Positions 33,073 to 53,902 of a stretch of 64,000 nucleotides of DNA are shown here, piece by piece. A program made the translations under genes and the position numbers. Below the pieces are notes generated by a model that was given only the letters and a program-made list of their open reading frames with translations, made no database searches and was not told where the DNA came from. The DNA is taken from contig NZ_FUYC01000001.1 of NCBI RefSeq assembly GCF_900167125.1, positions 62,001-126,000 of the forward strand, in the 5' to 3' direction. The DNA comes from Paucidesulfovibrio gracilis DSM 16080 (lineage in GTDB: Bacteria; Desulfobacterota; Desulfovibrionia; Desulfovibrionales; Desulfovibrionaceae). Position 1 is the first letter of the stretch. Every line of letters starts with the position of its first letter.

Positions 33073-33148
<76 letters not shown>

Positions 33149-33164
33149 CCATATTTTCTTAAGT

Positions 33165-33205
33165 AAAAGGACCGTTTAGCTTGATAGGCTGGATGGTCCT
33201 TTTTC
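33165..33205 (+). terminator. intrinsic terminator of tRNA-Ala
   Basis: AAGGACC (33167-33173) pairs with GGTCCTT (33195-33201), followed by a T run. Related copies follow the att cores at 52785-52819 and 55054-55090, showing the repeated block is longer than the 45-base core. Confidence 0.8.
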
Positions 33206-33564
33206 TATGGTTGGTCAACCAGCTGGTCAACCATTATGTTGACTAAGTGTTTGAGATCACTGATTAAGTCGCTGTATGAACTGTTTATGAAGGTGTATGA
33301 AGCGGAAAACGCTCAACCCTTAATTACCCTGCGGGGTTAGACATCCTTCAGCAAAATCCCCATCTACCCTCCATCATCGACTGATACAGGAGGTACGCAA
33401 AGCAGAATTTTAGGATCGTATTTTCTGTGTGTATCTTTATGTGTCTCTGGCTGTGGCGGCGCGTAGGATTTTTCGTGCCAGAAGGGTGTATGTTTCTACC
33501 TAAATCGCTTATAGAAATGCTGTTTCAAAAAAACTGTACACTATTTCGAACAGGACGGGTGGTT
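33206..33564. other. left end of element: paired arm motifs, no gene
   Basis: 359 bases. TGGTCAACC occurs at 33212-33220 and 33224-33232. Bases to about 33270 resemble those right of the last att copy (55098-55160). An AGGAGG at about 33390 has no start codon at usable distance. The remainder shows no feature. Confidence 0.55.
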
Positions 33565-34215
33565 ATGAAAGATATTTGGAAGCCAGAATGGGATGAACTC
33601 ATTGCCACCGCCTATGGCAATGTTTCTTCTGGAGTAAAAAAGTCTGAGTCAACGCAAGAAATAGATCATGTCTTTGCCGAAATTCTTTCTCTTTGGGTTG
33701 GCAGCATGAAAGTAAAGGACACATGGAAATTCTACCTTGGTCATCAAGAGAACTCATGGTGTTACCTTGGACAAGCCCGGTCAAAAAAACTTCAAGAGTC
33801 TTTTAATTTTGGTTTTTACGAAGGGAAGCTCTTCTTGGACGTTTCTTTTGTGCATCCATACCGCCTCAAGTACATGGGGGATGATTTTTGGGAGCATTTG
33901 ATTGAACTTAACAAGTGTGGAGATTGTAAGTTTTCTGAAAATGCAGGGCTAGCCGGTGACGAGGGAAAGCTCCTAGAGAAGTATTCGTCTTCAAAGAGTA
34001 ACATCTTCAATATCGTGAAGAATTATCTTTTGCTTGAAATGCATGGCGGAGGTTCAGGCGATTTAGGAGGAGTGGAGGTTTTATGGCCCATGGATGTTGA
34101 TAGAGAGGAATTGCTCCTGAATGGTGCTACCGCCTTGTTCCATATGTATAAAATGAATTATTTGCTTTACCGAAGTTATAGTCAATACTTGAATGGCTTA
34201 AAAAAACGGTCCTGA
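33565..34215 (+). CDS. hypothetical protein, 216 aa (island)
   Basis: Soluble protein with many aromatic residues and no signal or membrane segment; I do not recognise a family. The ATG at 33565 is the first with any ribosome site (GGGTGG); the frame is open for 46 more codons with a hydrophobic, unlikely N-terminus. Base composition is much richer in A+T than the host genes. It sits between the att site and the convergent integrase, a place where integrative elements often carry cargo such as defence genes, but nothing in the sequence shows its function. Confidence 0.7.
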   Translation: MKDIWKPEWDELIATAYGNVSSGVKKSESTQEIDHVFAEILSLWVGSMKVKDTWKFYLGHQENSWCYLGQARSKKLQESFNFGFYEGKLFLDVSFVHPYRLKYMGDDFWEHLIELNKCGDCKFSENAGLAGDEGKLLEKYSSSKSNIFNIVKNYLLLEMHGGGSGDLGGVEVLWPMDVDREELLLNGATALFHMYKMNYLLYRSYSQYLNGLKKRS

Positions 34216-34346
34216 GTTTTTATTATGTGGCATTAAGCCCTGTGCTGGCGGAAAATAGACTGCGCTGGTTCGCGCCGTGAGAAGAGTTCGATCCTTGGGC
34301 CCATCATCCCACCACCGCTTGAGCTGAATTCGGCAATGGACCGTCC

Positions 34347-34383
34347 AAAAAAATGAAGGAGGACCATTTCTGGCCCTCCCTTC
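34347..34383 (-). terminator. intrinsic terminator of integrase operon
   Basis: Minus strand: GAAGGGAGGGCC pairs with GGTCCTCCTTC around AGAAAT (small mismatches), then A and seven T residues. Confidence 0.75.
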
Positions 34384-34407
34384 ATCGCTTGGTCCGTGAC
34401 GGGCCAG

Positions 34408-35448
34408 CTAGTCCAGATCGGGTAAATGTTCAATCGCTTTCTCTGTATCTCCAATTATTACATGTGCATAGCGGTCCAGGGTCATCTTGGCAGATGAGTG
34501 GTCCATCAGCACTGAGACAGTCTTCACAGGTACGCCGTTAGACAGCAGTTGAGTGCAAAACCAGTGGCGGATGTCGTATTGCTCTACCGACTTGTCGATT
34601 TTAAGCTTGTCGCAGGTGCGCCGAAAAGCTCCAGCGCAACTCATGATCTGCTTGCCACGATACTCGACGATATAGCCGCTCTTGTTCTCCTTCTTCCATG
34701 CACGGAGTTTCTTGAGAAACGAAGCCTTCAGCGGGATCGTGCGCCAGCGTTGATTCTTCGCAGACCAAACACGGATCGCAGATTTGTCCCATAATACAGT
34801 GTCGTACCGCAGGCTGAGCAGTTCGCTTGGCCCAGGTCGTACTCCCGTATTTGCAAGGATTTCGATCGCTTGAGCTGAATGCTTGGAGGCAGTTTCTCTG
34901 AGCTTGCGGATCATCTCCAGGTCCAAAAGCAAGTGCTTCTGGGGCGAGTTCTTCTTCTTGACAAAACGCAACGGATTTTCCTTCAAGTACCCACGTTCAA
35001 TTCCGAAGTTGAACATGCGCTTAATGTAGTTGAGGTACGCGCTCTGCGTCACTGGCGATGCTTCTGGAAATGCCCTCATCACCAGTGCTGTAACGTATCC
35101 TTCAGTGAGCTGGGTCATCGGCAATTGACCGAGATCTTCAAGCAAATGATCGTTTAACAATTTTTTCCAATCAGTCTTCCAACGTTTCGGTTCTTTGAGT
35201 GCATCTGCCGCGAAGTAATGCTGGCTGAGTTCATCGAAATACACGATGTCACCTGTGAGCGAATCCAGTAACGACTTCTTCTTGTGCTCGATTTTCGCAT
35301 CCATTTCTGCGACGAGCTTTTCAGCAGCTTTCTTGCCTTCTTCACCGAAACCGCAGGACTTCTGCTTCTGTATGCGTTTCTTGCCTTCCTTCCAGTACCA
35401 ACGAGCAACGTATTGCCCGGTGGTCGGGTGCGGGAAAACGGTTCCCAT
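34408..35448 (-). CDS. int: tyrosine-family integrase
   Basis: 346-residue site-specific recombinase. N-terminal arm-binding segment, SAM-like core-binding domain (about 65-170), catalytic domain with the first Arg in NTGVRPGPSEL, RHWFCTQLL (His/Arg box), DHSS (second His) and the nucleophile Tyr in DRYAHV. All catalytic residues seem present, so it is probably active. AAAGGAGG stands 4 bases before the ATG. It lies near the tRNA-Ala att site, 13 bases after the Xis-like gene, and should act on the 45-base repeat. Confidence 0.95.
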   Translation of the reverse strand: MGTVFPHPTTGQYVARWYWKEGKKRIQKQKSCGFGEEGKKAAEKLVAEMDAKIEHKKKSLLDSLTGDIVYFDELSQHYFAADALKEPKRWKTDWKKLLNDHLLEDLGQLPMTQLTEGYVTALVMRAFPEASPVTQSAYLNYIKRMFNFGIERGYLKENPLRFVKKKNSPQKHLLLDLEMIRKLRETASKHSAQAIEILANTGVRPGPSELLSLRYDTVLWDKSAIRVWSAKNQRWRTIPLKASFLKKLRAWKKENKSGYIVEYRGKQIMSCAGAFRRTCDKLKIDKSVEQYDIRHWFCTQLLSNGVPVKTVSVLMDHSSAKMTLDRYAHVIIGDTEKAIEHLPDLD

Positions 35449-35461
35449 ATAGCCTCCTTTG

Positions 35462-35698
35462 CTAGAGTTTCTTAACTTTGCGTCTCTTTGGTTTCACCAG
35501 CAGTGGAGCATCCAGAAATGCATCTGGATCGACCATAAACAGGTCCAAATCCGACTGTGCGAAACGGTTCTTGCCAGGGCCGCGTCTGGGGATCTGGTGC
35601 TTACGAGCCAGCAACCGAAATCGGTCGTAGCTGTAGTCCAAATATGTTGCCGCAGACTGTGCCGTGTGGTATGGTCCAGTAGGTGTAGATTTTGTCAT
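35462..35698 (-). CDS. excisionase/AlpA-like DNA-binding protein
   Basis: 78 residues with a MerR/AlpA-type winged helix (HTAQSAATYLDYSYDRFRLL then IPRRGPGKNRFAQSDLDLF) and a lysine-rich tail. Proteins of this size directly before an integrase gene commonly act as excisionase and regulator. Same operon as the integrase. Confidence 0.82.
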   Translation of the reverse strand: MTKSTPTGPYHTAQSAATYLDYSYDRFRLLARKHQIPRRGPGKNRFAQSDLDLFMVDPDAFLDAPLLVKPKRRKVKKL

Positions 35699-36032
35699 CC
35701 TGTGCCTGTAACACGCTGAAATATTTTGGTAAATTCTACACCATTTCTCCTGCTAGTCTCTTCATCATCTCAAACAGTTTTTCATACATCTAAGTAAAGA
35801 CCCTTCATCATCAGCCGGTGAACCCGGCAGGTGATGCGCAATTTTTTTTGATTTTTTTTGATCAGGGCCATGCCAGAACGACCTTGACGGTGGATGGAAT
35901 ATATATATCTATTTGAAAATACTGTAAAATTATGCTAAGGTGTTCGACGGTGCTGCCGTTCAAGCCATTCAACAAAAGACAAAAAGAAAGGAAGACACCC
36001 CGAAGAGAATCTTCCTTTCCCAAAACACTCCT
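35699..36032. other. A+T-rich noncoding stretch
   Basis: 334 bases upstream of the Xis-like gene, with T8 runs and AT repeats. On the minus strand GGAAGA...TCTTCC near 35990-36012 with T-rich sequence beyond may end the small upstream gene. It must contain the int operon promoter; no confident -35/-10 is seen. Short frames here lack ribosome sites. Confidence 0.4.
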
Positions 36033-36170
36033 TCAACGCTTATCTCGCAATCCTTCGTCGATGAGGACGATGATAACGACCTTCAGTGTCTTCTTGAGTA
36101 TTTTCTTAGTGAGTTTCAACTGTAAAATTCTGAAGATTGTCTCTTTCGAAACAATCGTTGCATGAACCAT
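36033..36170 (-). CDS. small basic protein, 45 aa
   Basis: A 45-codon frame starting at the ATG 36170-36168, preceded by AAGGAGGTGACA, an almost perfect ribosome site. The product begins MVHATIVSKETIFRIL and is rich in Lys, Ile, Val and Leu, with an amphipathic middle (LKLTKKILKKTLKVVIIVLI) and ends GLRDKR. Lies between replicase and Xis-like genes on the same strand, where satellites often encode small regulators. No family recognised; the ribosome site is the main evidence. Confidence 0.5.
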   Translation of the reverse strand: MVHATIVSKETIFRILQLKLTKKILKKTLKVVIIVLIDEGLRDKR

Positions 36171-36433
36171 TGTCACCTCCTTCAGTGAAAGAGTTTCACC
36201 ATGGTAATATATATCTTTATAAAATATCTCTAAGAATAAAAAGTATAGAACTAGATAATGCAGATGAAAGTAATAGTTCTTTCATTTCATTCATCAGAAT
36301 CGAACAATACAACAAAAAAATGCCCACCCGCTTTATTAGATAGTGGCAATTAAAGGGGGAGTATAGTCACGGTAATCACTGGTCATTTAAATTAGTTATA
36401 AATATACGATATATATAAAATATAATAAGGGTA
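36171..36433. other. very A+T-rich region beside replicase gene
   Basis: 263 bases with strings of AT repeats (ATATATATC, ATATACGATATATATAAAATATAATA) just downstream of the replicase gene and upstream of the small gene. No open frame. An A+T-rich tract next to a replicase is a possible origin unwinding element; this is inference only. Confidence 0.4.
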
Positions 36434-37483
36434 TTATTTATGGTTATTAATGATAGATTTGTATCTATTTAAGGTGGATTGTCCAAGACCAGTGACATTG
36501 CAGATTTTCTTCCGTGTTACTTTCTCTCCGTTTGCTTTCATAGTTTCGATAGCGTCCAGGATTTTCTGACGAGTTTGATTTGTCCGTTTCTGGTTAACGT
36601 AGTGAGCGCCGAGTGACAGGCGGTGCTTACGTTCCTTTTCAAGTTCGTCATCTGGCAGATCATAGCCAATTGATCCGAGATTCATCACGCCACGGTTGTA
36701 CATGTGTTGTTTGAAGTTGGGATCATCCTTCTTGTTCCAGGTCCATTTAGTGATTGAGTTGATGACACAATAAGCCTCTGAAATGGTTAGTTCGTGATCA
36801 CCTTCCATTTGTTTCGCAACATTGTGATAGTAATCGAGAACAACCTTTTCAACGGCAGTTTTCCAAGAATCAAAGTCTGAGTAGTTCTTCACTTTCGGAT
36901 ACAGAAGCTTCCGGCAGTGATGGAACATTGTCTTCTCGCGGCCCTCATAGACCTCATCGTCAACCTGTACGTATTCTTTGTGAACATACGGAATGAACTC
37001 GGAAAGCTCTTGAAGGTCGTACTGCACATCACACCAGTGGACTTTCCAGTGATCATGGAACGGGTTGTTAATCGCATTTCCTGTGTATCCATGATCACCG
37101 TCAAGAACTACATCCATGCCGCGTCTCACGTTGTTGAAAAAACGGATTGCTTTCTGGCTGATCCAATTGGCCTTCCTTCCATCTGCCAATGGAAAGTAAA
37201 CAGGTCTTTTGAGTTCAAACAGATACTTGGCGTGAGTGTTTTTAGGGTTGATGATGACAATCGTTGGTTCCAACATGACTTCATCCATCCATCTGCTACC
37301 TGCCATCTCATAGTCCAGGTCCAAGCAGATATACTTTCGTTTTTGACCTGGGAGCTGGATAAACTGGTATTGCAAGGCTTGATCTTTTGAATAAATGTAC
37401 CACCTGTTCTTTTTGTCATCAGTTGCTCTGGGGCGTGGGCTAAGGTGGTTGTAGAAACGAACTTCGGGACCATCGTGTTTCAT
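36434..37483 (-). CDS. plasmid-type replicase/primase
   Basis: 349 residues. The N-terminal part fits the Replicase family (ICLDLDYEMAGSRWMDEV, PTIVIINPKNTHAKYLFEL then KRPVYF), known from ColE2-type plasmids and some phage-like elements, in which one protein binds the origin and makes the primer. A middle segment (SEAYCVINSITKWTW...) looks like the PriCT region and the end (VTRKKICNVTGLGQSTLNRY) is a helix-turn-helix. GGAGGA precedes the start. With int and AlpA-like genes it gives the int-alpA-rep order of phage-inducible islands. Confidence 0.85.
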   Translation of the reverse strand: MKHDGPEVRFYNHLSPRPRATDDKKNRWYIYSKDQALQYQFIQLPGQKRKYICLDLDYEMAGSRWMDEVMLEPTIVIINPKNTHAKYLFELKRPVYFPLADGRKANWISQKAIRFFNNVRRGMDVVLDGDHGYTGNAINNPFHDHWKVHWCDVQYDLQELSEFIPYVHKEYVQVDDEVYEGREKTMFHHCRKLLYPKVKNYSDFDSWKTAVEKVVLDYYHNVAKQMEGDHELTISEAYCVINSITKWTWNKKDDPNFKQHMYNRGVMNLGSIGYDLPDDELEKERKHRLSLGAHYVNQKRTNQTRQKILDAIETMKANGEKVTRKKICNVTGLGQSTLNRYKSIINNHK

Positions 37484-37690
37484 GGGATTCCTCCTGTTTA
37501 GGGTTCATCCCATTTATATCTTTAGCAAAGTTGCTCTCATCCGTAGAGCAACGCAGAACGGTCATCAGAATGAGCCAATCTGAATCAGGATCGTCCGTCA
37601 GTGTTGGAGGATGAGATACTGTTGCACTTCAAGAAAGTGCCAAATCGTTAGAGATATGATTGAAAGTGAGATTTGATCGGTAGGCTGTGG

Positions 37691-37735
37691 GGTAACGGCA
37701 GATTGGCGGGGAGACCTGTTGATTCTGCCGTTACC
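37691..37735. other. perfect 12-bp inverted repeat
   Basis: GGTAACGGCAGA pairs with TCTGCCGTTACC around 21 bases. It overlaps the stop codon of the transglycosylase-like gene and has no T run. Could stabilise or end that transcript, or be a protein site upstream of the replicase. A second hairpin (GCACTT/AAGTGC) lies at 37624-37640. The rest of 37484-37690 shows nothing. Confidence 0.6.
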
Positions 37736-38705
37736 AATCTCGATCCATTTCCCACAAAGAATCGGGAAAGTCCCATATAGGTACGAACGTCTGAGCATCT
37801 TCACCATCTTGCTCAAAAACTATGGGACCATCAGGAGATTGCAAATCTAGATTAACTGAAGTCACATATTTCTCCAGCCACCAAAAATACATGGAATTTG
37901 AAAAGGTCCTGAAACTGGAATTTTTAATCAGGTCATCAAATTCGAACCCAATGAATTCTTCAACGAACCATCTGAACCTATCAATGTCCTTGTGCAGATG
38001 GTAATAATCGTCGTTTTTCTTCCCTTGCTTGTTGAACGGACGAAATGAGACAGCCTGATCTTTCTTGGTTGCATTATCAAAGAAGACACATCGTCCTCCT
38101 TTGGTCCATTGAGCATGGCTGGAGCAATCACTTGACCACGCATGCAATCCTTGGAGTACGTCTGCGCTACCGATCCGAAACGCATGGACTCGGACACCTG
38201 CATCATAGAGTTGTTTTACAGCATTCCTGAAATTCTTCATCCCGATAGCATTTGAGCCAATGGCGATCAGTGGATACTTCTCTCTCTGGTCGATAATTCT
38301 GCTTAGTTCATCGTCGCCTAAGGAGTGCAGTACAGGAACAGGGTTAAGTCCCATGTCTTCCAGTATCTTCTGGTTATCCCAATTCTTGCTGGCGAAGTTG
38401 TCCTTTTCTGCTTCATTGAAATCTTCATCGTAGTTGAAGTAGCAGTAGAACTTGTCGCCGTGTTCTTTCAGGAACGCACCATAGTCATATACGGTATGCG
38501 TCACCTTTCCAGGGTTCTGGTTTTTGGACCAGACACCACTGTCCAGAATAACCTTGTCGATGTGCTGTGGGTAATCCTTCAGAATCTTGAACGTCTGGTT
38601 ATCGTCCAGGCCAAATGAACGGAGCAGATTGACTTTTATTTCTGGTGCGAACTCATGGATAAGTTCGAACGTATAGTAGCTGAGGGAGGATTGAAAAATT
38701 TTCAT
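37731..38705 (-). CDS. TGT/DpdA-like transglycosylase-fold protein
   Basis: 324 residues. The pattern resembles phage and DpdA-type relatives of tRNA-guanine transglycosylase: an early Asp in ILDSGVWSK, NYDEDF, PVLHSLGDDE, PLIAIGSNAIGMKNF, then VRVHAFRIGSADVLQ and the Ser-rich SSDCSSHAQW that replaces SVDSxSW. Family enzymes swap guanine for 7-deazaguanine in tRNA or DNA. Whether base exchange is kept is open, since no preQ0 genes are seen here. The ATG overlaps the upstream gene's stop (ATGA), so the two are coupled. Confidence 0.65.
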   Translation of the reverse strand: MKIFQSSLSYYTFELIHEFAPEIKVNLLRSFGLDDNQTFKILKDYPQHIDKVILDSGVWSKNQNPGKVTHTVYDYGAFLKEHGDKFYCYFNYDEDFNEAEKDNFASKNWDNQKILEDMGLNPVPVLHSLGDDELSRIIDQREKYPLIAIGSNAIGMKNFRNAVKQLYDAGVRVHAFRIGSADVLQGLHAWSSDCSSHAQWTKGGRCVFFDNATKKDQAVSFRPFNKQGKKNDDYYHLHKDIDRFRWFVEEFIGFEFDDLIKNSSFRTFSNSMYFWWLEKYVTSVNLDLQSPDGPIVFEQDGEDAQTFVPIWDFPDSLWEMDRDW

Positions 38706-39730
38706 CGACCAAGACCTTCCTTGAAGCCAGCCCACTTCATTTTTGTGCTATCCGACCAAGCATGAAAAACTTCTTCCTGAAGGGAGACAAGGGTGGCGAA
38801 CATATGCGCCGTTCTCTCACCCCGATAACCATCAGGAATATAACCATCATCGAGAATCTCTTCCATCATGTCAGTAAGTTGCAAAACAGTTTCTTCCAAC
38901 TTGTTATAGGAAGGCGAAAGATCAGGGGAGGTAGATTTTTTCGTTGTCTTCTGAATTGAGCTAATAACTTCGCTATCAATCGTATTGTTTCTTTTTACTG
39001 CGGATGAAATTTTTTGAACGGCAGACTTCGGTAAGATTCCACCTTTTGTCTGTTGGGTGATCGTAGCTAATGTCTGTTCATCAACGATGACTTTTTTGTC
39101 AGCCAATAATTTTCGGTTTGCTGCTTTGGACACCAAGGATACGAATTCGGTTGTGTCATCATCGTTTTCCAGTTTGAACTCGTACCCAGATTCACTGAGC
39201 AGCTTCTGCAACGGATCAGGGTTCTCTATGCTCTCCAGAACGTTTGCAAGAGCTACCAGCCTCGTTATTCCCAGAAACGAATACGATTCAACATTGGGTA
39301 TTTTAGCAACTCGCATGAAGTCAAATCGTCTGGCCCTTTTCCCAATCGAGTCGAACAGCTTGTCAGAGATTTCCTCAAACGTTTCTCGTTTAACGGTTGC
39401 GTCAGTGATGTTTTTGTTATGGTGCTGGATATGCTCTTCGACCATGAGAAGCAACTTCCCATACTGAATCTTATATAACGCTTCTGAAGCCATTTTCAGG
39501 CCAGTAGAGACAGCTAGGTCACGACTGATCTCTGTGAGAATTTCAACAGCTTCATTGAGATTCATCTCAGCATGGGTCGTTCCATCTCTATAGTGAAAAG
39601 AGATGTGATGCAGTCGCTCGACGGTCTTCTTATTGAGCGGGCCAGCCTCAAGCTGAGTCCAGTGGTATTCCCGAATCTTATCCAGTGTCTCTTGGGTGAT
39701 GATTTCATGCTGTTCTGGCTGGTCTACCAT
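38702..39730 (-). CDS. hypothetical partner of the TGT-like protein
   Basis: 342 residues, soluble, mostly helical and charged, with no signal or membrane segment. I recognise no catalytic motif or known family. It is translated from a good site (GGAGG 7 bases before the ATG) and coupled by ATGA overlap to the TGT-like gene, so the two products probably act together. A leader hairpin lies 20-40 bases before the start. Confidence 0.75.
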   Translation of the reverse strand: MVDQPEQHEIITQETLDKIREYHWTQLEAGPLNKKTVERLHHISFHYRDGTTHAEMNLNEAVEILTEISRDLAVSTGLKMASEALYKIQYGKLLLMVEEHIQHHNKNITDATVKRETFEEISDKLFDSIGKRARRFDFMRVAKIPNVESYSFLGITRLVALANVLESIENPDPLQKLLSESGYEFKLENDDDTTEFVSLVSKAANRKLLADKKVIVDEQTLATITQQTKGGILPKSAVQKISSAVKRNNTIDSEVISSIQKTTKKSTSPDLSPSYNKLEETVLQLTDMMEEILDDGYIPDGYRGERTAHMFATLVSLQEEVFHAWSDSTKMKWAGFKEGLGR

Positions 39731-40520
39731 TTTCGTCCTCCGTCAGCTCAAAAGTCCAGCCGCCTGGACTTTCCGCCTGTGTATGAGCGTATCAGCTTGC
39801 AGAAGAAATTCGGAAAAGGTCTGCTTGTGGGTTCACTGTGGGTTGCTCATACTTCATGGGTATTCTTCATCATACATCTCAAAAATAAAAAAAGTGTCAC
39901 AACTACATAAAATACAAGAAGAATTTAAACAGCAACAGCAGCCATGTCAAGAAATAGTATCGCAAAAAGGACGCCATTTTTCAGGTGGTCCATTTTCTTC
40001 ATGGCTGAAAAAATATCGGGGTAAGAATGGGTGCAAGATCAAGGGTGGACTACCTCATGGGGTTATTGTTCATGCGATGCGTCAATGACACGCCAACGTC
40101 CGTCTTTGAACCAGTCACTGTTGTTCATTCAGGCAGTTTTGAAATAACCGTCTGGCAATTTTTTGATGGGGTCCATCTTATTTGGCTGGTTACACACTCA
40201 TGTGGATGTCTGCTTCAGGGTCGATCACGACAAAAAAGAAGGTGGAGTCACAATGGATGTTGCTGTGACTGCCATCATATTCTCATGAATCCTGGACCTT
40301 GATCGATTTGTTGAGTCCTCCCCCTTGCCAACCGGGATCGAGTGGTTATTGTCTCAGATGCAATTTAACCACGAAAACGGACATCAATTTTCGCACAAAA
40401 TGATCAAGGCAGCTTCATATATGCATGACGGACCTTCTGGGGTTCTGACTTCGTTTGCTCATATTAGGGCAGCCGAATTTCTCCTGTTCGACCAAACTGG
40501 CGAATTAGGAGGATTTTATC
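39731..40520. other. long noncoding region with leader hairpin
   Basis: 790 bases between divergent genes. A perfect stem AAAGTCCAG/CTGGACTTT (39751-39772, four-base loop) lies in the leader of the minus-strand hypothetical gene. A frame at 40325-40579 has no ribosome site and overlaps the radical SAM gene, so it is not called. The rest may hold promoters or an RNA gene; I cannot identify one. Confidence 0.5.
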
Positions 40521-41480
40521 ATGCGTTTAATGAATCCGCTTCTTGCAACTCGCAAGAAGGCTATTTATCGGACTGTTAAGTTTGATAAGAAGGAACTTTG
40601 CAGTCACTCTTTAGATATCGGTTTGATTTGCGATCATGGATGTCTATATTGTTCCACCCCCACCATCGCATCCGCTCGGACCAATCCCGTTTTTAAAGAA
40701 AACGGAACCACCGCTCAGAAGGCGCACAACGCGCAGCTTGCTTGTATAGACCTTGGAACGCCGGAACGTGTCGCTGCTGACGCAAAGCAGTTGACCGCAT
40801 CCGATGTTGTGATGATGTGTACCAAGGTTGACCCGTTTAGCCCTGCTGTGCAGCAGACTAACCTGTTCCGTGATTGCCTGTATGAGTTGCTGACCAACAA
40901 CCCTCATTGTCAGGTCAGGGTCCTTTCAAAGAACGCGGGTATTGTTGATGTACTCAAGGACTTCACCGAGTACGCTGACCGTATCCACTTCTCGCTGAGT
41001 CTAACGGCCCCGACCAGTCAGCAGGACTTCATTGACATCGTTGAACCCAACACCTCCAGTATCACAGAGCGTATTGATGCGCTTAAGGAGGCACATGGTC
41101 TGGGATTCAGGATGTATGGCATGGTCTGTCCCTGCATTCCTGGTATTCTGACTGAGTATCATCAGGTCGAGTCTGTGTTTAAGGAAGTCCTTCAGTTCAA
41201 CCCCGAAACTATCTGGGTCGAGCCTGTGAACAGTCGTGGACAGGGATTCAACAACATGGTTGCGGCACTGGATGAAGCCGGTAAGCACGAATGGGCTAGC
41301 TCCATCAAGGCGATCAAGAATAAGGACTCCCATGATGAGTATGTCGCTGGTCTCATCAACACCGTGGCTCTGGTGAGCAAGAATCTGGCTTTGGACGTTC
41401 CGATCCGTTTCCTTTCGTACAATCGTAAGGATGCTATCAGCGCAAAGCTGATTGACGATTCACACGTAATTTGGCTGTAG
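40521..41480 (+). CDS. radical SAM protein (SPL-like)
   Basis: 319 residues. The [4Fe-4S] motif is C37-x3-C41-x2-C44 (ICDHGCLYC). The rest follows the spore photoproduct lyase-like group (Rv2578c type): MMCTKVDPFSPAVQQTN, VRVLSKNAGI, HFSLSLT, a degenerate EP motif (IVEPNTSS), and CPCIPGI. Family members start radical chemistry with S-adenosylmethionine; the substrate is unknown, nucleic acid being one option. Good GGAGG at 8 bases before the ATG. It faces away from the TGT-like pair across a long noncoding region. Confidence 0.88.
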   Translation: MRLMNPLLATRKKAIYRTVKFDKKELCSHSLDIGLICDHGCLYCSTPTIASARTNPVFKENGTTAQKAHNAQLACIDLGTPERVAADAKQLTASDVVMMCTKVDPFSPAVQQTNLFRDCLYELLTNNPHCQVRVLSKNAGIVDVLKDFTEYADRIHFSLSLTAPTSQQDFIDIVEPNTSSITERIDALKEAHGLGFRMYGMVCPCIPGILTEYHQVESVFKEVLQFNPETIWVEPVNSRGQGFNNMVAALDEAGKHEWASSIKAIKNKDSHDEYVAGLINTVALVSKNLALDVPIRFLSYNRKDAISAKLIDDSHVIWL

Positions 41481-41647
41481 GAAAATGAATCAGGAGCACG
41501 AATAGGCTCCAGAACCATTAAGATTCGCTAGTTTAGGCGGGGTTGTTCGGTCCATGACCAAGCAATCCCGTCATTTTTATTTCTCTGGATTGACAATCAG
41601 CAGGCGGGGATATTGGGCAGTGAAACGTACATTCCAAATTAACTCGG

Positions 41648-41695
41648 CAAAAAATAGGACAGGAGCCACAGTAGGTCAGTACTGCGGCTCCTATT
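41648..41695 (-). terminator. intrinsic terminator
   Basis: Minus strand: AGGAGCCGCAGT pairs with ACTGTGGCTCCT (one G-T) and TATTTTTT follows. Ends the small HTH/AbrB-like gene's transcript. Confidence 0.82.
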
Positions 41696-41698
41696 TCG

Positions 41699-42103
41699 TT
41701 AAGCTTCACCGTCCGATTCAGGTGCTTCCTCTTCATCGTCCGGGCCAGCGGCAGTGACGGGCGAAAGGATGATCCTGTTGTCCTCATCCACTTCGATGGT
41801 GAACTCGCTGTTGATCTGGAAGTCTCCTTCAATGGCTTCCAGTTTCTTGAGAGTGATCTTGATGCCATGCTTGGTGACACGAACTCGACTGTTGCTTCGT
41901 TCATACAGGCCGGGAAGAGTTCTCAGTTGATTGTCCTCCACAGACAACCGCATCAAGTGCGTCCTGAGACTCTGAAGCGATGCCAGTCCCAGCTTCTTCT
42001 TCGCTGTCTGGGCATCGGCTCCTTCTTCGCACAATTGACGGAGCAAAGGAGCATCGTATTTGCTCTCGACTATTCGCCTCTTGGATTCATTCTTCTTTGC
42101 CAT
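41699..42103 (-). CDS. small HTH/AbrB-like regulator candidate
   Basis: 134 residues: a basic start, a helix-turn-helix-like part (residues 17-55, LLRQLCEEGADAQTAKKKLG), then a stretch (VTKHGIKITLKKLEAI ... IEVDEDNRIILSP) with the spacing of AbrB/SpoVT swapped-hairpin domains, and an acidic tail. Such proteins often repress their own gene. AGGAGG stands before the ATG. A palindrome (TTCGGTTGACCGAA at 42361) in its upstream region is a possible operator. Family assignment is by pattern only. Confidence 0.65.
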   Translation of the reverse strand: MAKKNESKRRIVESKYDAPLLRQLCEEGADAQTAKKKLGLASLQSLRTHLMRLSVEDNQLRTLPGLYERSNSRVRVTKHGIKITLKKLEAIEGDFQINSEFTIEVDEDNRIILSPVTAAGPDDEEEAPESDGEA

Positions 42104-42493
42104 TTTTCCTCCTATGTATTTGTTTTTATTGGATATCTATATATCAACTTTGAAACAGACATAGGTGGGGCCAGTGCTTAAAGTGACTGGTTTTGGAAGC
42201 TTCCAAATTTCGCTCCTCCTGCCCGTTTTGGGGGTTGGAGCAGGGTTGGTCAGGATTTTTGTTTGGATTTGTCCTTGAGGGTGTTTTGCGCGAATTTTGG
42301 GTGGGGGGTGGGGCTGGATGGGCAGAAAAATATGACGGGGAAGTGGAGGGGCTGTTGGATTTCGGTTGACCGAAGTTTTGATCTATCCAGATGCTTTGTG
42401 ATGCGATAACGGCGTGTTTGCTTGCGCTGGTGAAGCACATCTGCCGTTCAAAAATAGTAGAGACAGAAGGCGGGATATTTCACCCGCCTTTTA
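42104..42493. other. control region with palindromes
   Basis: 390 bases without a gene. TTTGGAAGCTTCCAAA is a perfect 16-base palindrome at 42192-42207; CCAGT...ACTGG flanks 42173-42189; TTCGGTTGACCGAA is at 42361-42374; a hairpin GGCGGG/CCCGCC (42469-42488) with T run lies just past the next gene's stop. G-rich sequence at 42225-42320 shows no open frame with a ribosome site. Confidence 0.6.
42361..42374. promoter_or_regulatory. candidate operator, copy 1
   Basis: TTCGGT-TG-ACCGAA inverted repeat. The same 14 bases with GGAT before them recur at 43415. The core GGTTGACC is the complement of GGTCAACC found in the att arms. Confidence 0.5.
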
Positions 42494-42748
42494 TTAGGCT
42501 AGAATGTCTCTGATTTTGTTCGGTTGGCAAAGACTTACTGAATTCAACAAGTCTTCAGGTTTGAGTCCGCAAAATGCAATGTCATTGCCATCAGCATCCT
42601 TGATGGAAACTGTGGCAAGATAAGCACCATCTTCTTCATTTTTTTCTAAGCCGAAATGTATTGAACCGTTTCCAGCGTTCAAATCGGTTGTATCATAAAA
42701 GTATACGATATCCTCAAACACTACCTTTGCAACAACTGATGCCTCCAT
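42494..42748 (-). CDS. hypothetical protein, 84 aa (island)
   Basis: Small acidic protein (MEASVVAKVVFEDIVYFYDT...), soluble, with no motif I recognise. It is well supported by AAAAGGAG at 8 bases before the ATG and by a hairpin right after its stop. Its downstream sequence (TTTTTGAACGGCAGATG) is shared with the next minus-strand gene. Phage or satellite accessory genes of this size are common. Confidence 0.65.
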   Translation of the reverse strand: MEASVVAKVVFEDIVYFYDTTDLNAGNGSIHFGLEKNEEDGAYLATVSIKDADGNDIAFCGLKPEDLLNSVSLCQPNKIRDILA

Positions 42749-42927
42749 AAGATACTCCTTTTATATCGATATATCTATTCGAGTAATTTCATAATGTAAT
42801 TAGTAGGAGAAAAGAATAAATACTCTTATGAAGTGCATCTGCCGTTCAAAAAATAGAAAGGACTTCTCTCGAAACAAAATTATCTCAAAAGAAGTCTGAT
42901 CAGATTTATTATGGGTTATAATGAAAA

Positions 42928-43305
42928 TTATTCGTCTTCTGGTAGACAAAACGTCAAACAGGCTTTCTCTTTGTCATCAGTACAAAGTAATCCTAGTATT
43001 TTTACTTTCTCAAGTCGTCCTGGTCCCATCAGATACAGCACATCAAACGCTACTCTGGTTCCATCCCATCGAACAGAAGCGGCTGCTTTGAACATCATTA
43101 TCGTGTCATGGAGCCTACCCGTGGTTGATTGCCCTTCCCCTACGAGCTTTTCTGGTGGCTCAATGTAATGGTGAAAGAGATTGCTTGAGACAACGGCAGG
43201 TATCTTCAGTCCGCTTTCTTCTTCAGAGATGGGAATCAAAACACCATCGGCTATTGCCTGCGTTCTGGTATACGCGTACACAAGATCAAAGTCGTCGAAA
43301 TTCAT
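42928..43305 (-). CDS. DUF6573-family protein
   Basis: 125 residues. The start (LVYAYTRTQAIADGVLIPIS) and the following SGLKIPAVVSSNLFHHYIEPP match the DUF6573 pattern found mainly on plasmids and integrative elements; function unknown. GGAGG lies before the ATG. Divergent from the large ATPase gene, with the TTCGGTTGACCGAA palindrome between them. GACTTC/GAAGTC (42848-42890) followed by T-rich sequence is a likely terminator. Confidence 0.82.
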   Translation of the reverse strand: MNFDDFDLVYAYTRTQAIADGVLIPISEEESGLKIPAVVSSNLFHHYIEPPEKLVGEGQSTTGRLHDTIMMFKAAASVRWDGTRVAFDVLYLMGPGRLEKVKILGLLCTDDKEKACLTFCLPEDE

Positions 43306-43414
43306 GGATACTTCCTCCAGATTAAAATTGGTTGAAATCTGAAGGTTATCCTCGGCTTGAAGATGTGGTCACGGGCGAATTGCCAGTCCCGGTCCAGTGC
43401 TGAGTGTGACGGAT

Positions 43415-43428
43415 TTCGGTTGACCGAA
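43415..43428. promoter_or_regulatory. candidate operator, copy 2
   Basis: TTCGGTTGACCGAA, preceded by GGAT as in copy 1 at 42361. Lies 43 bases before the large ATPase gene and 110 before the divergent DUF6573 gene, so it could control both. Confidence 0.5.
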
Positions 43429-43470
43429 TATTTGTTCAATTTGATGTAATAAAGTCGTTCCCCAATACCG

Positions 43471-46400
43471 ATGGTTCCAGACATGCTAGATCAGTCCAGT
43501 GTTGTTAAAAATGATGTTCTTTCCTCCGTATCAGATTGGTATGAATGGTTATCTGGTGAGGAGCAGAAAACAGTAAACGCATACCGTACAAAGCCGGAGC
43601 TGTTCATAGGTCATTTCCGTAGAGAAAGAGACACGACTGCTGAGTACAAAGGACGAGAAGTACTGGAGTTGCTTCAAAATGCTGCCGACGCAGCAAAAAA
43701 AATAGGACAACAAGGGCAAGTCCTTATCGAGTTAAGTCCTGCTGGATTGATCGTAGCCAATAGTGGTGCTGCATTTTCTACAGGTGGTGTTCAATCATTA
43801 CAGACTCCAGATTTTAGTCCGAAATTTAACGAAGGCGTTTATATTGGCAATAAAGGACTTGGCTTTCGCGCTGTCCTTAACTGGAGCGATTGGCCAGTGA
43901 TCTTAAGTCAGTCGTTAGCACTTACTTATTGCGAACAATATTTGACCAGAAAGACAGAGCAGTTGTGCCAAGCGAGTCCTGAGTTAAACTCCTTGGTGCA
44001 GGATGAGAGTCAAAGGCTCAACGGCAGTGTCTCTCCCGGGCTGCCTTTTCCAGCTTTTTCCGAGAACGGAGATTTGTCAGAATATATGACTGAGGCATCT
44101 CAAAAAGCTGTGTACCAAAGGTGTCAAGAACTGCATTTAGATGAGAAGTACACGACAGTAATTGGTATGCCTTTCAAGTCTGAGGACTTGTACGAAGTTG
44201 CCAAATTGCAAATCCAGACATTGCGTCCAGAGATTCTCCTATTCGTTCATCATCTAGATAAAATTGCATTTAGGTTGCACGACGAGGATGAATACAACTG
44301 GTCCCGTATTAAAGATGATGATTCCCAAATGATGGTGATGAAAAATGGTGCCCCAATCGGAATATGGAGGGTCTTTCACTATGAAGGGATCGTTCCGAAA
44401 GAAGAAGTAGATGATAGTCAGCAAGGCCAAGTACAGTTTGAACTTATTGTAGCTGTCCCTGAAGTGCAGGATTGTGGGGAACTTGTTGCATCACCTCTTT
44501 TCTCTCATTTCCCGACGAATATTTTGATGCCGATTCCGGTAGTCTGTCACGCCTCGCTAGAGCTTGACCAAAGTAGAAATCACATTCTGGACAAAAACAG
44601 TAATCGGTATGTCTTGCATGAGCTGGCTGGTTTTGTTGCCACAATTGCTGAACAAAGGGCTGTTCAATATCCTGCCGGGTGCAATGCTGGATTTCGTTTA
44701 TTAATCCCTCTTCGAAGTTCGTACCCTCACGATCTGGAACAAATGGTATTTCCAGAGGCTTTACTAAATGCTGCTCGGACAAAATGCATAGTTCCAACAT
44801 TGGGTGGTAAGGCTGTGCGCTACGACCAAGCTTACTCTGTTGATGGGGCAGATGAGTCCTGGCTCCCCGCAGAAGTTTTCGAAGATGTAACTCCTATAGC
44901 CGATGTGTCTGAGAGGGACTTTTTCAAAAAGCTCGGAGTGAAAGCTTTGAGTGATAGTGACTTTCGACAACGGTTGCTTGCTATTGAAAATCTTTCTTTA
45001 GGCGAAAGAGTACGATTGATTGTTGGGTTGATTGAGAACTGTGTTTCTTCAAGCGTCCATAGTTCAGCCCTTTTATTAAGTTCAAGTGCGGAGTCTGTGC
45101 CTGATAACGCAACCGTCCTGATTGCACCAAAAGAATCAAAGCTGCCCTCAACCCCTTCATGGGTATCATTGCGATATTTGGACTCGGATTTAGCGCGTAT
45201 GCTGAGCGATAGATTGCGCGTGTCTGACTCTCGTGATTTGCAACGAAAGATGAGGTCTTTCGGGCTACAAGAGTACTCGTTAGCGAATCTAATTCAACGT
45301 GTGATTGCAAATTCAAACCAATACGCGAAGGAAGAAGGCGACTCCTCAGAAATGGTTCAAAAGGAGCTAATTCAATACCTTTTCAAATTGTTTGAGTTGG
45401 AGGACTCCACCAAGAAACGTCCTGCATTTCCTGAAAGGGCTTCCTTGTCATTAATCAATATCAATGGAGACCGTTGCCCCGTTAATACGCTTTATATGGG
45501 GACGGGCTACGGTAGTGATGGGAACATCGTTCAAAGCTTGTATGGGGCATGTCATCCTGAACAACTTGTCGCAGCCCCTCATGCGTTGGGGCTGAAGAAC
45601 TGTGAAAAGGATGAGTTAATCTCATTTATGCAGTGGATTGGTGTCTCCAGGTGGCCCAGAGAAACCTCCACAAATTGCAGCGACACAGAGTATAAGGAGT
45701 ATCTGCTAGGAACCATAAGCTATCCAGTTAACTTCAATGAATATCATTTTAACAGTAGAGAAGAGGCTTCCCGGAATGCTCGTTTCTTTGTTCGGGACAT
45801 GAAGAACATTGATGGACTGGAAGCAATAATTGAGAGCGCACCGACAGCAGCAATTGCTGCTTGGTTAGCGCTGGATGAAAAGATGCCTCAACTTCTTAGG
45901 GCCGGGGAGTGGAATGCTCGTTTTAGCGCGAAGAAAGGGAATGATCGTAACTGGAGGAGTTACAGGGGGAGATTGCCAAGTTTTATCAAATGGAAGCTTG
46001 AAGGTTCTGAATGGTTAATTGCTAAAGATGGAAGCAAAATGCGTCCTAAGGATTGTGTTTTAGGTACGCGATTAAATGAAGCACTTTTTCTAAGACCAGT
46101 ATATCCAGAAAGTGATGTGCTAGAATTGTATGGCCTTGATATTAATGATCTGATTGAAGGTTGGCGGCGTGGGGGTGTCGCTTCCAGCATCGCGGAGCTT
46201 GAAAAAAATCGTCTGTATGAGTTGTTGCTTGAGTGGCCTGAACGCCACCCTGATGGAAAGTCTGCAAGAGCATTATACAAAGCTGTTATTGACGCGATAG
46301 ACACAGCTTTTGGAGAAGATAGAGGAGCGCGTAGCCTGTTTTTTGAGTCTGGCAAGATGTGGAGCAAGTGTGGTGAGTATTACCCTATTGGTGAGATGCG

Positions 46401-47682
46401 CCATGATGACTTGCAAGGATTCCCACAAGCTCTGTTGGATGAGTTTACATTAGTTGATCTGCCTCACCGAGTTGGCTCTGATAAAGTGAGGCGAACATTT
46501 GGTGTAAACTCGCTTGATAAAGAGGACATTGAGCAGCGTGTGAACAGCTATGATTTGGCTGGAAATTTTGATGTAGAATTTCAAAGTGTAAAGCCATTTT
46601 GGTACTGTCTCCGTGTTGCACAATCCAGCCAAGTTCAGAATTTGGAGTCTCTGAAGCGGTTGAAATTAAGAGTGTGTTCCAAGATAAGCACGACTCTGCT
46701 TTATCAGGGGAAAACCATTAACTACTCTGTTCCAGTGTGGGGCTGGCTTATTGATAATGGTGTTTTGTATGTGCGGAGCGACCCTGCAAAATCCGTCAAT
46801 TCAAAGTCTACTCTATTAGCTGAAGCTATTGGCGCAGCTATCGCTTCACTGTTTAGGATTGCGAGTGGCGCGGAGTTTGTGACGATGTTCTTAACTGATC
46901 CAGAAGACCGGGAGGCTCTTCTTGAGCAAAAGGGAATCGAAACGACTACTGAAGAGATGGAACGGATACTTAAAGATTTTGGAACTCCCGTCATTGAATC
47001 TGTACCAGTACTTCCCCAAGGGGTGCCAGTTCCCGAACTGGAAAAACGAACAGAGGGTAAAAGTGATTCTCCATCAACCTCAGAACCCGTTGACAGTACG
47101 CCTTCACCAGCTCCAGACAAGGTAGAGGAAGCTGATTTGAAAGTGGAAGGGAAGGACTGCGTTGATCCTAAAGAAAGAACCAAGCGTAATATAACGGTTA
47201 AGAGAGTTGTGAATAAGCAGGGAGGCCATACTCGGCGGGTGACAGACTATAATTTTGTTGAACGAAAAGCCCTAGAGGTTGAGGCGTTCTTTGATAGGTT
47301 CCCTGTACTCGTTGGACATATTACCGGTTATGAAGCTCCTGGCTGCGATATTCTCAGTTTTTCATCTGCGGAACATAGAGATGAATTTCTTTCAGGAGAA
47401 AATAGAGATTCTGACCGGGTTGAACGATTTATTGAAGTTAAAGGACGTCGAGACAAAGGAGCTGCGATTGAATTGCGTGGCAACGAAATGAATGCTGCAC
47501 ATGAGAGACAAGAAAAATACTACATCTATCGAATGAGTAAAAACGGTGAAGGTTCGTTTGAATTAAGCATATTAAATAATCCGATGGCGCATAAGAATGC
47601 GTTAGAGCAATCCATTTATGTAGACATGGATCGTGCAGAGTCTCTGGAGAGATTTAATGTCTCAGGTGGTTCAGCAGAATAA
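43471..47682 (+). CDS. HSP90-type ATPase with DUF3883 nuclease-like domain
   Basis: 1403 residues, probable cargo defence protein. The N-terminus is a sacsin/HSP90-type (GHKL) ATPase: ELLQNAADA at 67-75 (metal-binding Asn), IVANSG in place of the usual DNG box near 94-99, and IGNKGLGFRAVL at 125-136. A long middle has no known domain. An acidic linker (about 1195-1235) leads to a DUF3883 domain with a PD-(D/E)xK-like Asp1293, Glu1322 and Lys1324 (CDILSF; FIEVKG). ATP-controlled nucleases of this shape occur in anti-phage loci. Start is not fixed by a ribosome site; 43483 is possible. Confidence 0.82.
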   Translation: MVPDMLDQSSVVKNDVLSSVSDWYEWLSGEEQKTVNAYRTKPELFIGHFRRERDTTAEYKGREVLELLQNAADAAKKIGQQGQVLIELSPAGLIVANSGAAFSTGGVQSLQTPDFSPKFNEGVYIGNKGLGFRAVLNWSDWPVILSQSLALTYCEQYLTRKTEQLCQASPELNSLVQDESQRLNGSVSPGLPFPAFSENGDLSEYMTEASQKAVYQRCQELHLDEKYTTVIGMPFKSEDLYEVAKLQIQTLRPEILLFVHHLDKIAFRLHDEDEYNWSRIKDDDSQMMVMKNGAPIGIWRVFHYEGIVPKEEVDDSQQGQVQFELIVAVPEVQDCGELVASPLFSHFPTNILMPIPVVCHASLELDQSRNHILDKNSNRYVLHELAGFVATIAEQRAVQYPAGCNAGFRLLIPLRSSYPHDLEQMVFPEALLNAARTKCIVPTLGGKAVRYDQAYSVDGADESWLPAEVFEDVTPIADVSERDFFKKLGVKALSDSDFRQRLLAIENLSLGERVRLIVGLIENCVSSSVHSSALLLSSSAESVPDNATVLIAPKESKLPSTPSWVSLRYLDSDLARMLSDRLRVSDSRDLQRKMRSFGLQEYSLANLIQRVIANSNQYAKEEGDSSEMVQKELIQYLFKLFELEDSTKKRPAFPERASLSLININGDRCPVNTLYMGTGYGSDGNIVQSLYGACHPEQLVAAPHALGLKNCEKDELISFMQWIGVSRWPRETSTNCSDTEYKEYLLGTISYPVNFNEYHFNSREEASRNARFFVRDMKNIDGLEAIIESAPTAAIAAWLALDEKMPQLLRAGEWNARFSAKKGNDRNWRSYRGRLPSFIKWKLEGSEWLIAKDGSKMRPKDCVLGTRLNEALFLRPVYPESDVLELYGLDINDLIEGWRRGGVASSIAELEKNRLYELLLEWPERHPDGKSARALYKAVIDAIDTAFGEDRGARSLFFESGKMWSKCGEYYPIGEMRHDDLQGFPQALLDEFTLVDLPHRVGSDKVRRTFGVNSLDKEDIEQRVNSYDLAGNFDVEFQSVKPFWYCLRVAQSSQVQNLESLKRLKLRVCSKISTTLLYQGKTINYSVPVWGWLIDNGVLYVRSDPAKSVNSKSTLLAEAIGAAIASLFRIASGAEFVTMFLTDPEDREALLEQKGIETTTEEMERILKDFGTPVIESVPVLPQGVPVPELEKRTEGKSDSPSTSEPVDSTPSPAPDKVEEADLKVEGKDCVDPKERTKRNITVKRVVNKQGGHTRRVTDYNFVERKALEVEAFFDRFPVLVGHITGYEAPGCDILSFSSAEHRDEFLSGENRDSDRVERFIEVKGRRDKGAAIELRGNEMNAAHERQEKYYIYRMSKNGEGSFELSILNNPMAHKNALEQSIYVDMDRAESLERFNVSGGSAE

Positions 47683-47718
47683 TGCGCTAACGTGGTAAGT
47701 TGGGTGAGGTGTGTGCAA

Positions 47719-49128
47719 GTGGATGATGACTATAAGCGCATAGCTGGCAATTTAGATAATCGCCAAAATCTTTGCTGCGAGAATCCTGAAGTCAAAGAAG
47801 TTTTGGACCTTGGCACGGGGAAAGTTCTTCTTGCTCAGGATGCCATTGGGAGTGACGTAAATGGCGCAATGAGATTGCGTAGGAAACTGGCAGGGCAGCA
47901 TAAAATCACCGACGATGATCAGTTAGAGGTGATTTGTCCCTATTGCCACAAACCTTTGCGTTTAAACTGTCTTATGAGCGGACAGCGTTTCTACTTTGCA
48001 CATATCAAACGCGAAAATAACTGCCCACAACTAGAGAAAAAGAACTGGACCAAAGAACGCATTGAAGCAGCTAAGTATAATGGTCAAAAGGAGTCTCTGC
48101 CTCACAAACAGATGAAAGGAGACCTGTGCAGGGTGTTGGAGGCTGATTCTCGTTTTTCAGATATTGCAGTTGAAGAGGTTGTAAAAGGAGAGGACCCAAG
48201 TACGTGGCGCAAGCCCGATGTCAGGGCTTTGTACAATGGTGCTTTACGAGTTGTTTTTGAAATACAGTTATCGACCACTTTTCTGGAAGTGGTGTTGGCT
48301 AGGAGAGATTTCTATCGAGAAAAAGGCGAATTGCTTGTTTGGGTTTTTAAAAAATTCTCACTCCGCGATGCTCGTATGATGGAATTTGACACCTTTCACG
48401 CAAACAACATGAACGCGATAGTGTTAGATCAGAAAGCGCAGGAATGGTGCCAACAGCACGGAAAGCTGGGGCTGAAGTGTGTTTGGGTTGAGCCTAAACA
48501 TGAAGATGGTCAGCTTTCTCATTCGGAATATTCCGATATTATTGACTTTGAAGATTTGAGCAAAAGCGTTGAAGATCAGCAGATTTATTGGTTCGATTAC
48601 AATGGGAAAAGAGCAATTGTTGATGCCGAGTTGGAGAGGTGGAGGGAAGTAGAGCGAGTCCGAAATATACGGGAGAGCTTCTTCGATGCCTTCGATCCAA
48701 CTCTTGATGCTGATGACCAATCAAAATACGCGAACAAGTTCTTTCCTGAAATGAATTTGCGTTCAAATGATATTAAGTGGCGATTAAGTGGCTACTTGCG
48801 GATGATGAACGCGGCGAGGACTGGCGATCCGACTAAGAGAGGCGGCGGTTGGGGATTTTCAAACTTCAAGAATATATACGACAACGTGTATAAGTCCCAT
48901 ACTTCACTATACTTCTTGTTTTGCTGTGCAATGAAAGCATACTCAAGGGACGAAACTAGCACATCAATCACTGACCGGAAGGAAGAAGCCTGGAGGTCTG
49001 TTTGTGCTGATGGCGAGAATTCAAAATTTCACCATGATTCTATTTACTCTGAGCTGACAGAGGTTTTATTTCCGGAGGTACATGAAGTGTATAAGAAAAT
49101 TTTGTCAAAATCTAAGAAGGGTAGTTGA
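47719..49128 (+). CDS. CoiA-like zinc/nuclease protein
   Basis: About 469 residues. A CPYCHKPLRLNC zinc-ribbon near residue 73 followed by FYFAHIKRENNC resembles the CoiA N-terminus; next comes a restriction-endonuclease-like core with HKQMK, Asp167 in KPDVRA and Glu181-x-Gln183 in VFEIQLS. The C-terminal 250 residues are unknown. It resembles the DUF6035/CoiA group. GTG at 47719 is chosen for GAGGTG 7 bases upstream. It starts 36 bases after the HSP90-type ATPase gene on the same strand, so they form a likely two-gene system. Confidence 0.75.
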   Translation: MDDDYKRIAGNLDNRQNLCCENPEVKEVLDLGTGKVLLAQDAIGSDVNGAMRLRRKLAGQHKITDDDQLEVICPYCHKPLRLNCLMSGQRFYFAHIKRENNCPQLEKKNWTKERIEAAKYNGQKESLPHKQMKGDLCRVLEADSRFSDIAVEEVVKGEDPSTWRKPDVRALYNGALRVVFEIQLSTTFLEVVLARRDFYREKGELLVWVFKKFSLRDARMMEFDTFHANNMNAIVLDQKAQEWCQQHGKLGLKCVWVEPKHEDGQLSHSEYSDIIDFEDLSKSVEDQQIYWFDYNGKRAIVDAELERWREVERVRNIRESFFDAFDPTLDADDQSKYANKFFPEMNLRSNDIKWRLSGYLRMMNAARTGDPTKRGGGWGFSNFKNIYDNVYKSHTSLYFLFCCAMKAYSRDETSTSITDRKEEAWRSVCADGENSKFHHDSIYSELTEVLFPEVHEVYKKILSKSKKGS

Positions 49129-49135
49129 TTCTTAT

Positions 49136-50539: not shown

Positions 50540-50634
50540 AGACCTATTTGTTCGTAGAGTGTTGAAACAAGCTATCCATAATCAAATCACATCTAAATGT
50601 GAATAGAATGTCCGTTCTCAGTGGCACCAAAATT

Positions 50635-50656
50635 TGGTCAACCAAATTGGTCAACC
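50635..50656 (+). repeat. paired arm motif left of att copy 2
   Basis: TGGTCAACC at 50635-50643 and 50648-50656, about 100 bases before the core. A related pair follows at 50856-50864 (TGGTGAACC) and 50868-50876. Confidence 0.7.
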
Positions 50657-50750
50657 GGAGCCTTTAACACGCCTCCAACATCACTGATTTTCTGTTGACC
50701 GGGAAAAAATAAATTCAATAATCCTGGAGCTTGGAGACGAGTCTCCTTGC

Positions 50751-50795: not shown

Positions 50796-50815
50796 AAAAT
50801 TTCCCAAAGAAGAAG

Positions 50816-53209: not shown

Positions 53210-53223
53210 TTTGGGGGAGCTGT

Positions 53224-53901: not shown

Positions 53902-53902
53902 G

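Follow-up and report, generated by a model that had tools for sequence, protein, structure and literature searches.

We analyzed a 64,000-nucleotide stretch of the 3.18-Mb genome of Paucidesulfovibrio gracilis DSM 16080 (positions 62001 to 126000 of contig NZ_FUYC01000001.1; hereafter, the window). A predicted integrative, plasmid-like element in this window carries a gene pair encoding a DpdA-type transglycosylase and a partner protein, together with a radical S-adenosylmethionine (SAM) gene. The pair recurs in related elements of the Desulfovibrionales, and it is marginally probable, in our judgment, that this cassette swaps guanine in the element DNA for imported 7-deazaguanine with the help of the partner. 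Positions are those of the window, and loci (L), genomes (G), and gene clusters (c) carry our own labels.

The DpdA-type enzyme and its substrate supply

Three open reading frames make up the region, namely 37731–38735 (minus strand, 334 residues), 38702–39730 (minus strand, 342 residues), and 40521–41480 (plus strand, 319 residues). A preliminary description, made from the sequence alone, had recognized a transglycosylase-fold gene overlapping a 342-residue gene and a radical SAM gene 790 bases away; the coordinates confirmed this arrangement, with the gap between the partner and radical SAM genes at 39731–40520. A better start for the first gene is the ATG at 38705, which gives a product of 324 residues (37731–38705, minus strand). 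This ATG and the TGA stop codon of the partner gene share four bases (ATGA), a layout typical of translational coupling.

We are highly confident that 37731–38705 encodes a DpdA-type enzyme. The gene matched PHROG 887 (“queuine tRNA-ribosyltransferase”) with an E value of 3e-16, as did 19 of 21 relatives, and gave no Pfam or NCBIfam match to a family of the tRNA-guanine transglycosylase (TGT) kind; the TGT family PF01702 was matched by none of the 21 relatives. Comparison by hhalign gave 99.0% (E 2.3e-18) against phage 9g DpdA, whereas profile comparison with the host TGT gave 0.5%. Likewise, all 10 phage and Bacillales-plasmid DpdA-like proteins scored 49–76 bits with the profile of the element proteins, compared to −0.6 for the host TGT, indicating that the enzyme is DpdA-like and not a tRNA TGT, as had been proposed. 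Size (317 residues in the phage 9g type versus 324), the DSG and SxDSSS Asp motifs, the VPxxH-like and AIG-like stretches, and VHxFG with the DpdA-type His are also shared with the phage 9g-type DpdA. The CxCxxC stretch, which holds the Zn ligands of TGT, was present in the host TGT row and had no counterpart in the element and phage rows shown. Thus, the enzyme resembles bacterial Tgt in its fold and in the position of two Asp residues, but differs from it in lacking a sequence-family match and this stretch.

Residues S6, L28, D55, D93, P124, G150, H174, D193, and G204 were invariant in all 21 aligned rows. D55 and D193 aligned with the Asp pair of 9g DpdA and TGT, so that the catalytic pair, for which the preliminary description had advised an alignment, is present and fully conserved; we take D55 to correspond to the DSG Asp and D193 to the nucleophile Asp of TGT. 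H174 aligned with His196 of 9g DpdA, the DpdA-type histidine, which is conserved in DpdA and missing in DpdA2 according to the cited part of PMC6884629. An AlphaFold2 model built from four sequences (predicted local distance difference test score, pLDDT, 70.9; predicted template-modeling score, pTM, 0.72) matched TGT chains best, with Z 15.2 over 259 residues, a root-mean-square deviation of 4.3, and a Foldseek E value of 1e-4. The structure comparison suggested earlier thus returned a TGT fold. Cap10 of the type IV cyclic oligonucleotide-based antiphage signaling system (CBASS; 9ntn), a relative of TGT that binds a protein conjugated to a base, also matched the model with Z 14.4, tied with the TGTs.

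In a tree built after exclusion of row L040, 39 element rows formed one group next to phage DpdA, apart from the seven phage and three plasmid rows, with support of 93/93. Phage DpdA genes (Queuovirinae and others) are paired with preQ0 synthesis genes and often have a sliding-clamp gene nearby; the element enzyme differs in having no such synthesis genes, an unrelated obligate partner, a home in an integrative element, and a separate tree group. A tblastn search of phages with DpdA of this element found none, and with a relative DpdA, weak matches in 163 phage records. Profile searches against PDB sequences, started from the alignment of DpdA or of the partner, returned nothing meaningful. 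Among the phage loci, phage 9g and its relatives (L112–L115) have the sliding-clamp gene next to DpdA or at most four genes away, and in two others, a mycobacterial phage and an Arthrobacter phage (L117 and L118), DpdA is preceded by a ParB-like gene. We also observed DpdA-like genes annotated as hypothetical proteins of 349–368 residues in Paenibacillus and Cytobacillus plasmids (L095–L097); these have a longer N terminus and are flanked by different genes on their large plasmids.

The host genome encodes one TGT, found with PF01702 and separate from the element enzyme, and one YhhQ-type transporter (E 1.1e-55). It holds no credible QueC, the best match being 23 bits over positions 3–68 of 210. 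Because a true QueC is absent and a YhhQ-type transporter is present, the substrate would be salvaged. The earlier expectation that the substrate comes from the host therefore held with respect to import by the YhhQ-type transporter, but not with respect to synthesis by the host. In all 24 carriers examined, either a full QueC without a YhhQ match (16) or the reverse (8) was observed, which fits with every carrier being able to salvage or synthesize 7-deazaguanine; a strong QueC match was also found in three of six non-carriers, which were scanned for QueC only. A split QueC-like match (59.7 plus 35.6 bits) was noticed at G089:C4:64803-65327; the same contig has three DpdA-like places.

One alternative is that the enzyme modifies RNA, with base exchange in tRNA or element RNA shifting translation in favor of the element. 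The TGT fold of the model and the 7-deazaguanine source kept in all carriers examined would be compatible with such a role. Nevertheless, the profiles relate the enzyme to phage DpdA, which acts on DNA, rather than to the host TGT; PF01702 was matched by no relative, the CxCxxC stretch is absent, and a complete TGT is already encoded by the host. Together, these points make the RNA alternative improbable. Base exchange on DNA would follow from the DpdA kinship and the kept catalytic residues, and we regard DNA as the probable target.

The partner protein, the radical SAM gene, and a second, putative TGT-fold family

The partner gene (38702–39730, minus strand) encodes a predicted all-helical protein of 342 residues without a known family that is co-conserved with DpdA. 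Among 297 genomes of the order, 21 held relatives of the DpdA-type gene, at up to six places per genome; among 344 other genomes of a phylum sample, 2 did. After removal of near-identical loci, which preceded all cassette counts and correlations, the partner gene lay directly before DpdA in 40 of 43 loci; the exceptions were L040 and L099, near contig ends, and L045, which has an unrelated or very distant gene. Because of this recurrence, the arrangement of the two genes is not due to chance. Four partner groups that were separate by BLAST formed one family by profile comparison (94.2–99.5%).

Distances between loci were then compared among the cassette, the integrase, and the backbone clusters c2, c3 (a short tyrosine recombinase), and c4 (DUF6573). 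DpdA and partner distances correlated tightly (Pearson r=0.83, n=30), although the Spearman coefficient in the full set was lower (0.46). The integrase, c3, c2, and c4 distances intercorrelated at 0.69–0.83, whereas DpdA correlated weakly with them (0.22–0.38), as did the cassette block with the backbone block (0.18–0.38). For 12 loci with a Prim-Pol-type replication gene (c5), the coefficient was 0.94 for DpdA and partner versus 0.36 for DpdA and the replication gene. These results indicated that linkage alone does not explain the correlation and that the pair moves between backbones as a unit; the partner and DpdA are thus very likely a co-inherited functional pair. A different reading, in which a recruited TGT fold performs no base exchange and the pair serves as a regulator of replication or copy number once the element is excised, would suit the usual position of the cassette between cargo and replication gene. 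We give it little credence, as the catalytic and base-binding residues are invariant and the cassette distances do not track those of the neighboring replication gene.

Protein-family and defense library scans gave no family match for the partner. Its model was of low confidence (pLDDT 65.8) and had no fold match in the PDB or BFVD, which, because the model is poor, is no evidence of a new fold. Assignment to DUF3102 was not accepted, as only 1 of 24 members matched (E 0.053), and the N terminus was not conserved in the alignment of 24. Comparison of the partner profile with two phage ParB-like proteins, which are not DpdB itself, gave no match (0.2% and 0.7%); DpdB is said to be ParB-like in the cited parts of PMC6392294 and PMC12839542. 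No partner was found in plasmids with a query from this element, nor in phages and plasmids with a query from a relative.

The radical SAM gene (40521–41480, plus strand) encodes a protein with the motif CDHGCLYC; its CX3CX2C pattern was present in 15 of 15 radical SAM genes of the loci scanned, this one included. Its match to Radical_SAM (E 1.3e-6, 29.2 bits) fell just below the cut-off of 29.5, and no curated family was assigned, the best score being 43.8 bits against a 360-bit cut-off. It distantly resembles the PA0069/Rv2578c/SPL radical SAM proteins, with the CX3CX2C motif and weak profile matches, but lies far below every curated cut-off and differs in its linkage to TGT-fold genes. Strong relatives occurred at 15 places including this one, with E values up to 2.1e-42, and 14 of these lay within 6 kb of a TGT-fold gene (a DpdA-like gene at 5, and at 9 a gene of a second family, T435); the exception, in G188, is 95% identical to the radical SAM protein studied here. 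Grouping this gene with the pair, as the preliminary description had done, might have reflected mere proximity, but the association recurs in relatives. A reading of the gene as unlinked cargo, prompted by the distance of most relatives from any DpdA-like gene, was dropped because T435 is present in those loci. Among c3 elements, a TGT-fold gene was found in 8 of 8 with a radical SAM gene versus 32 of 62 without one (Fisher p 0.009, uncorrected, with the elements interrelated). The radical SAM gene overlaps the replication gene by four bases in L105 and L068 and lies between DpdA and the replication gene in L034.

T435 is a protein of 435–451 residues, held by seven sister loci without a DpdA-like gene (L103, L105, L106, L107, L128, L132, and L137). 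Its invariant positions (DSGG, GG, HxLG, and DxI) and a weak profile match to DpdA-like proteins (73%, E 3e-5) suggest that it has a TGT fold. The family, which is apparently unnamed, turned up in 12 of the 297 genomes searched and was not found in phages and plasmids. Of 70 c3 elements, 32 carried DpdA and 8 carried T435, with both in none of the 40; T435 thus apparently replaces the DpdA cassette in sister elements. A gene of 243–290 residues lies directly upstream of T435 in five of the seven loci. Its identification as a sliding clamp was rejected (0.4% by profile comparison), as was homology between it and the partner (0.1%).

The integrative element and its family

All three genes lie in a 17.6-kb element at 33104–50795, as the preliminary description had supposed in placing them in one mobile element. 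It is inserted at a tRNA-Ala (GGC) gene (33073–33148, plus strand; ARAGORN) and is bounded by a left attachment-site (att)-like repeat of 45 bases (33104–33148, plus strand), which comes from the 3′ half of the tRNA gene, and a right repeat at 50751–50795 (plus strand). Copies starting at 50751, 52722, and about 54991 are 44/45, 44/45, and 43/45 identical, as counted by eye on the alignment. Between 33 and 55 kb, the G+C content is about 0.44, down from about 0.56. A tyrosine recombinase gene, the integrase (34408–35448, minus strand; Pfam Phage_integrase, E 1.2e-21), and a plasmid-type replication gene (36434–37483, minus strand; Pfam Replicase PF03090, E 8.2e-22), whose homologs occupy the same slot in relatives, were also found. 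Together with the tRNA att repeats, these features point to an integrative, plasmid-like element with putative excision and transfer. Megablast of the whole element against plasmids gave no match. A phage origin was dropped because scans of viral_contigs for DpdA-like genes, with single-protein and alignment queries, returned 0, 0, and 1 relatives.

The element belongs to a widespread Desulfovibrionales family of integrative elements bearing replication genes. The usual order is c4, cargo, partner, DpdA, replication gene, c2, c3, and integrase, with PF03090, Prim-Pol, DUF927, or unassigned types in the replication slot. DpdA was found upstream at 32 of 70 c3 places, and c3 downstream within 12 kb at 32 of 39 DpdA places; the c3 search missed one existing copy (G172:C2:91274, locus L037). 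In the element studied here, c3 is absent from the backbone, and its c2 (41699–42103, minus strand; 130 bits to the c2 profile) and c4 (42928–43305, minus strand; Pfam DUF6573, E 5e-12) genes are present. Relatives of c2 showed a weak helix-turn-helix match. The named relatives are Solidesulfovibrio and Fundidesulfovibrio, and Solidesulfovibrio culture-collection strains, with records for S. alcoholivorans DSM 5433 and S. aerotolerans DSM 16695, are among the carriers. No tRNA genes were found beside the related elements in most stretches examined, so that either integration at a tRNA is not the rule in this family or the site falls beyond those stretches.

The cargo comprises a TmtA-like defense protein with sacsin-type ATP-binding and C-terminal NO VEIN domains (43471–47682, plus strand; PADLOC TmtA, E 6e-301), a DUF6035/DUF7830 protein with weak CoiA-nuclease similarity in a Pfam-type scan (47692–49128, plus strand), and a protein with a Thoeris ThsB-like TIR domain in domain and defense-model scans (49136–50539, minus strand). 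These genes raise the alternative that the cassette marks DNA for an element-borne, Dpd-like restriction-type defense, in which cargo nucleases cut unmarked DNA. The TmtA-like, TIR, and DUF6035/CoiA-like proteins would provide for such a defense, but no Dpd component was matched by PADLOC among the 10 window proteins scanned, no restriction gene is conserved with the cassette in the element maps, and the cargo varies among elements while the cassette is retained. Hence, we consider it quite unlikely.

Two short segments bounded by tRNA-Ala att copies follow the main element in tandem (50751–55035). The second contains an HNH gene, a ribbon-helix-helix/ParE pair, and an addiction-module/ParE pair, and the HNH stretch is partly repeated at 53825–54259. 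Related elements also carry full-length flagellin genes as cargo (clusters c15 and c20; L034:13378-14886, L044:4041-6107, and others) with a foreign middle domain, which is Laminin_G_3/concanavalin-like in L034.

Proposed mechanism and significance

We propose that the partner, encoded by the first gene of the operon, would be translationally coupled to DpdA, encoded by the second. The nucleophilic Asp D193 would break the glycosidic bond of guanine, which would be exchanged for 7-deazaguanine (preQ0 or preQ1) imported by the host. The partner may be a nucleic-acid-binding or targeting subunit that takes the enzyme to excised or replicating element DNA and gives it its target or processivity. 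The modified bases could then hide the element from restriction when it enters a new host, and the base, once inserted, may be further modified by the radical SAM protein. The element’s own DNA as target, the role of the partner, the masking from restriction, and the radical SAM step are what we infer beyond base exchange itself.

Several points weigh against this proposal. TGT folds act on tRNA too. No TGT-fold gene was found in 30 of the 70 related elements, indicating that the element can do without the cassette. The nucleic-acid-binding role of the partner is a guess, because the protein has no family, a low-confidence model, and no fold match. Any cell that makes queuosine is expected to have QueC or YhhQ, and finding one or the other in 24 of 24 carriers is therefore weak support. 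Genes for preQ0 synthesis, whose absence had been noted before, and for the downstream Dpd pathway were not among the window proteins scanned. Moreover, phage 9g DpdA inserts preQ0 into DNA with no such partner mentioned in the cited part of PMC6884629, where the Escherichia coli TGT also seems not to be required for DpdA-dependent modification. Finally, a TGT fold can serve protein conjugation, as reported for Cap10 of type IV CBASS in the cited part of PMC11996544. A protein-nucleobase conjugation or sensing pair like Cap10/CD-NTase, in which the partner carries or reads deazaguanine, could explain an obligate, co-evolving partner and the Cap10 fold match, but is very improbable given that no Cap9/QueC-like or CD-NTase neighbor was among the 10 window proteins scanned, the partner N terminus is unconserved, and the DpdA catalytic residues are fully retained; the feature shared with Cap10 is the TGT fold.

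The bacterial Dpd system (DpdA-K) likewise combines a TGT-fold enzyme, predicted to insert preQ0 into DNA, with a second protein, but no Dpd component was matched among the 10 window proteins scanned. DNA with 7-deazaguanine is known from phages and Dpd islands, and in our literature search no report placed DpdA in a Desulfovibrionales integrative element. In a more far-reaching form of the proposal, which we consider doubtful, DpdA-like or T435 enzymes would insert salvaged 7-deazaguanine under guidance of a partner and the radical SAM protein would remodel the base, giving an undescribed mark; if true, such hypermodification would give integrative plasmids of this whole class an epigenetic identity. 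The recurrent radical SAM neighbor is a lead to further modified bases, and the partner, which co-evolves with DpdA, is a candidate specificity factor of DNA transglycosylases that has gone unrecognized. Elements of this kind may, as the cassette suggests, place a chemical mark on their own DNA, and if they do, base modification would be a general strategy of mobile DNA, beyond viruses.

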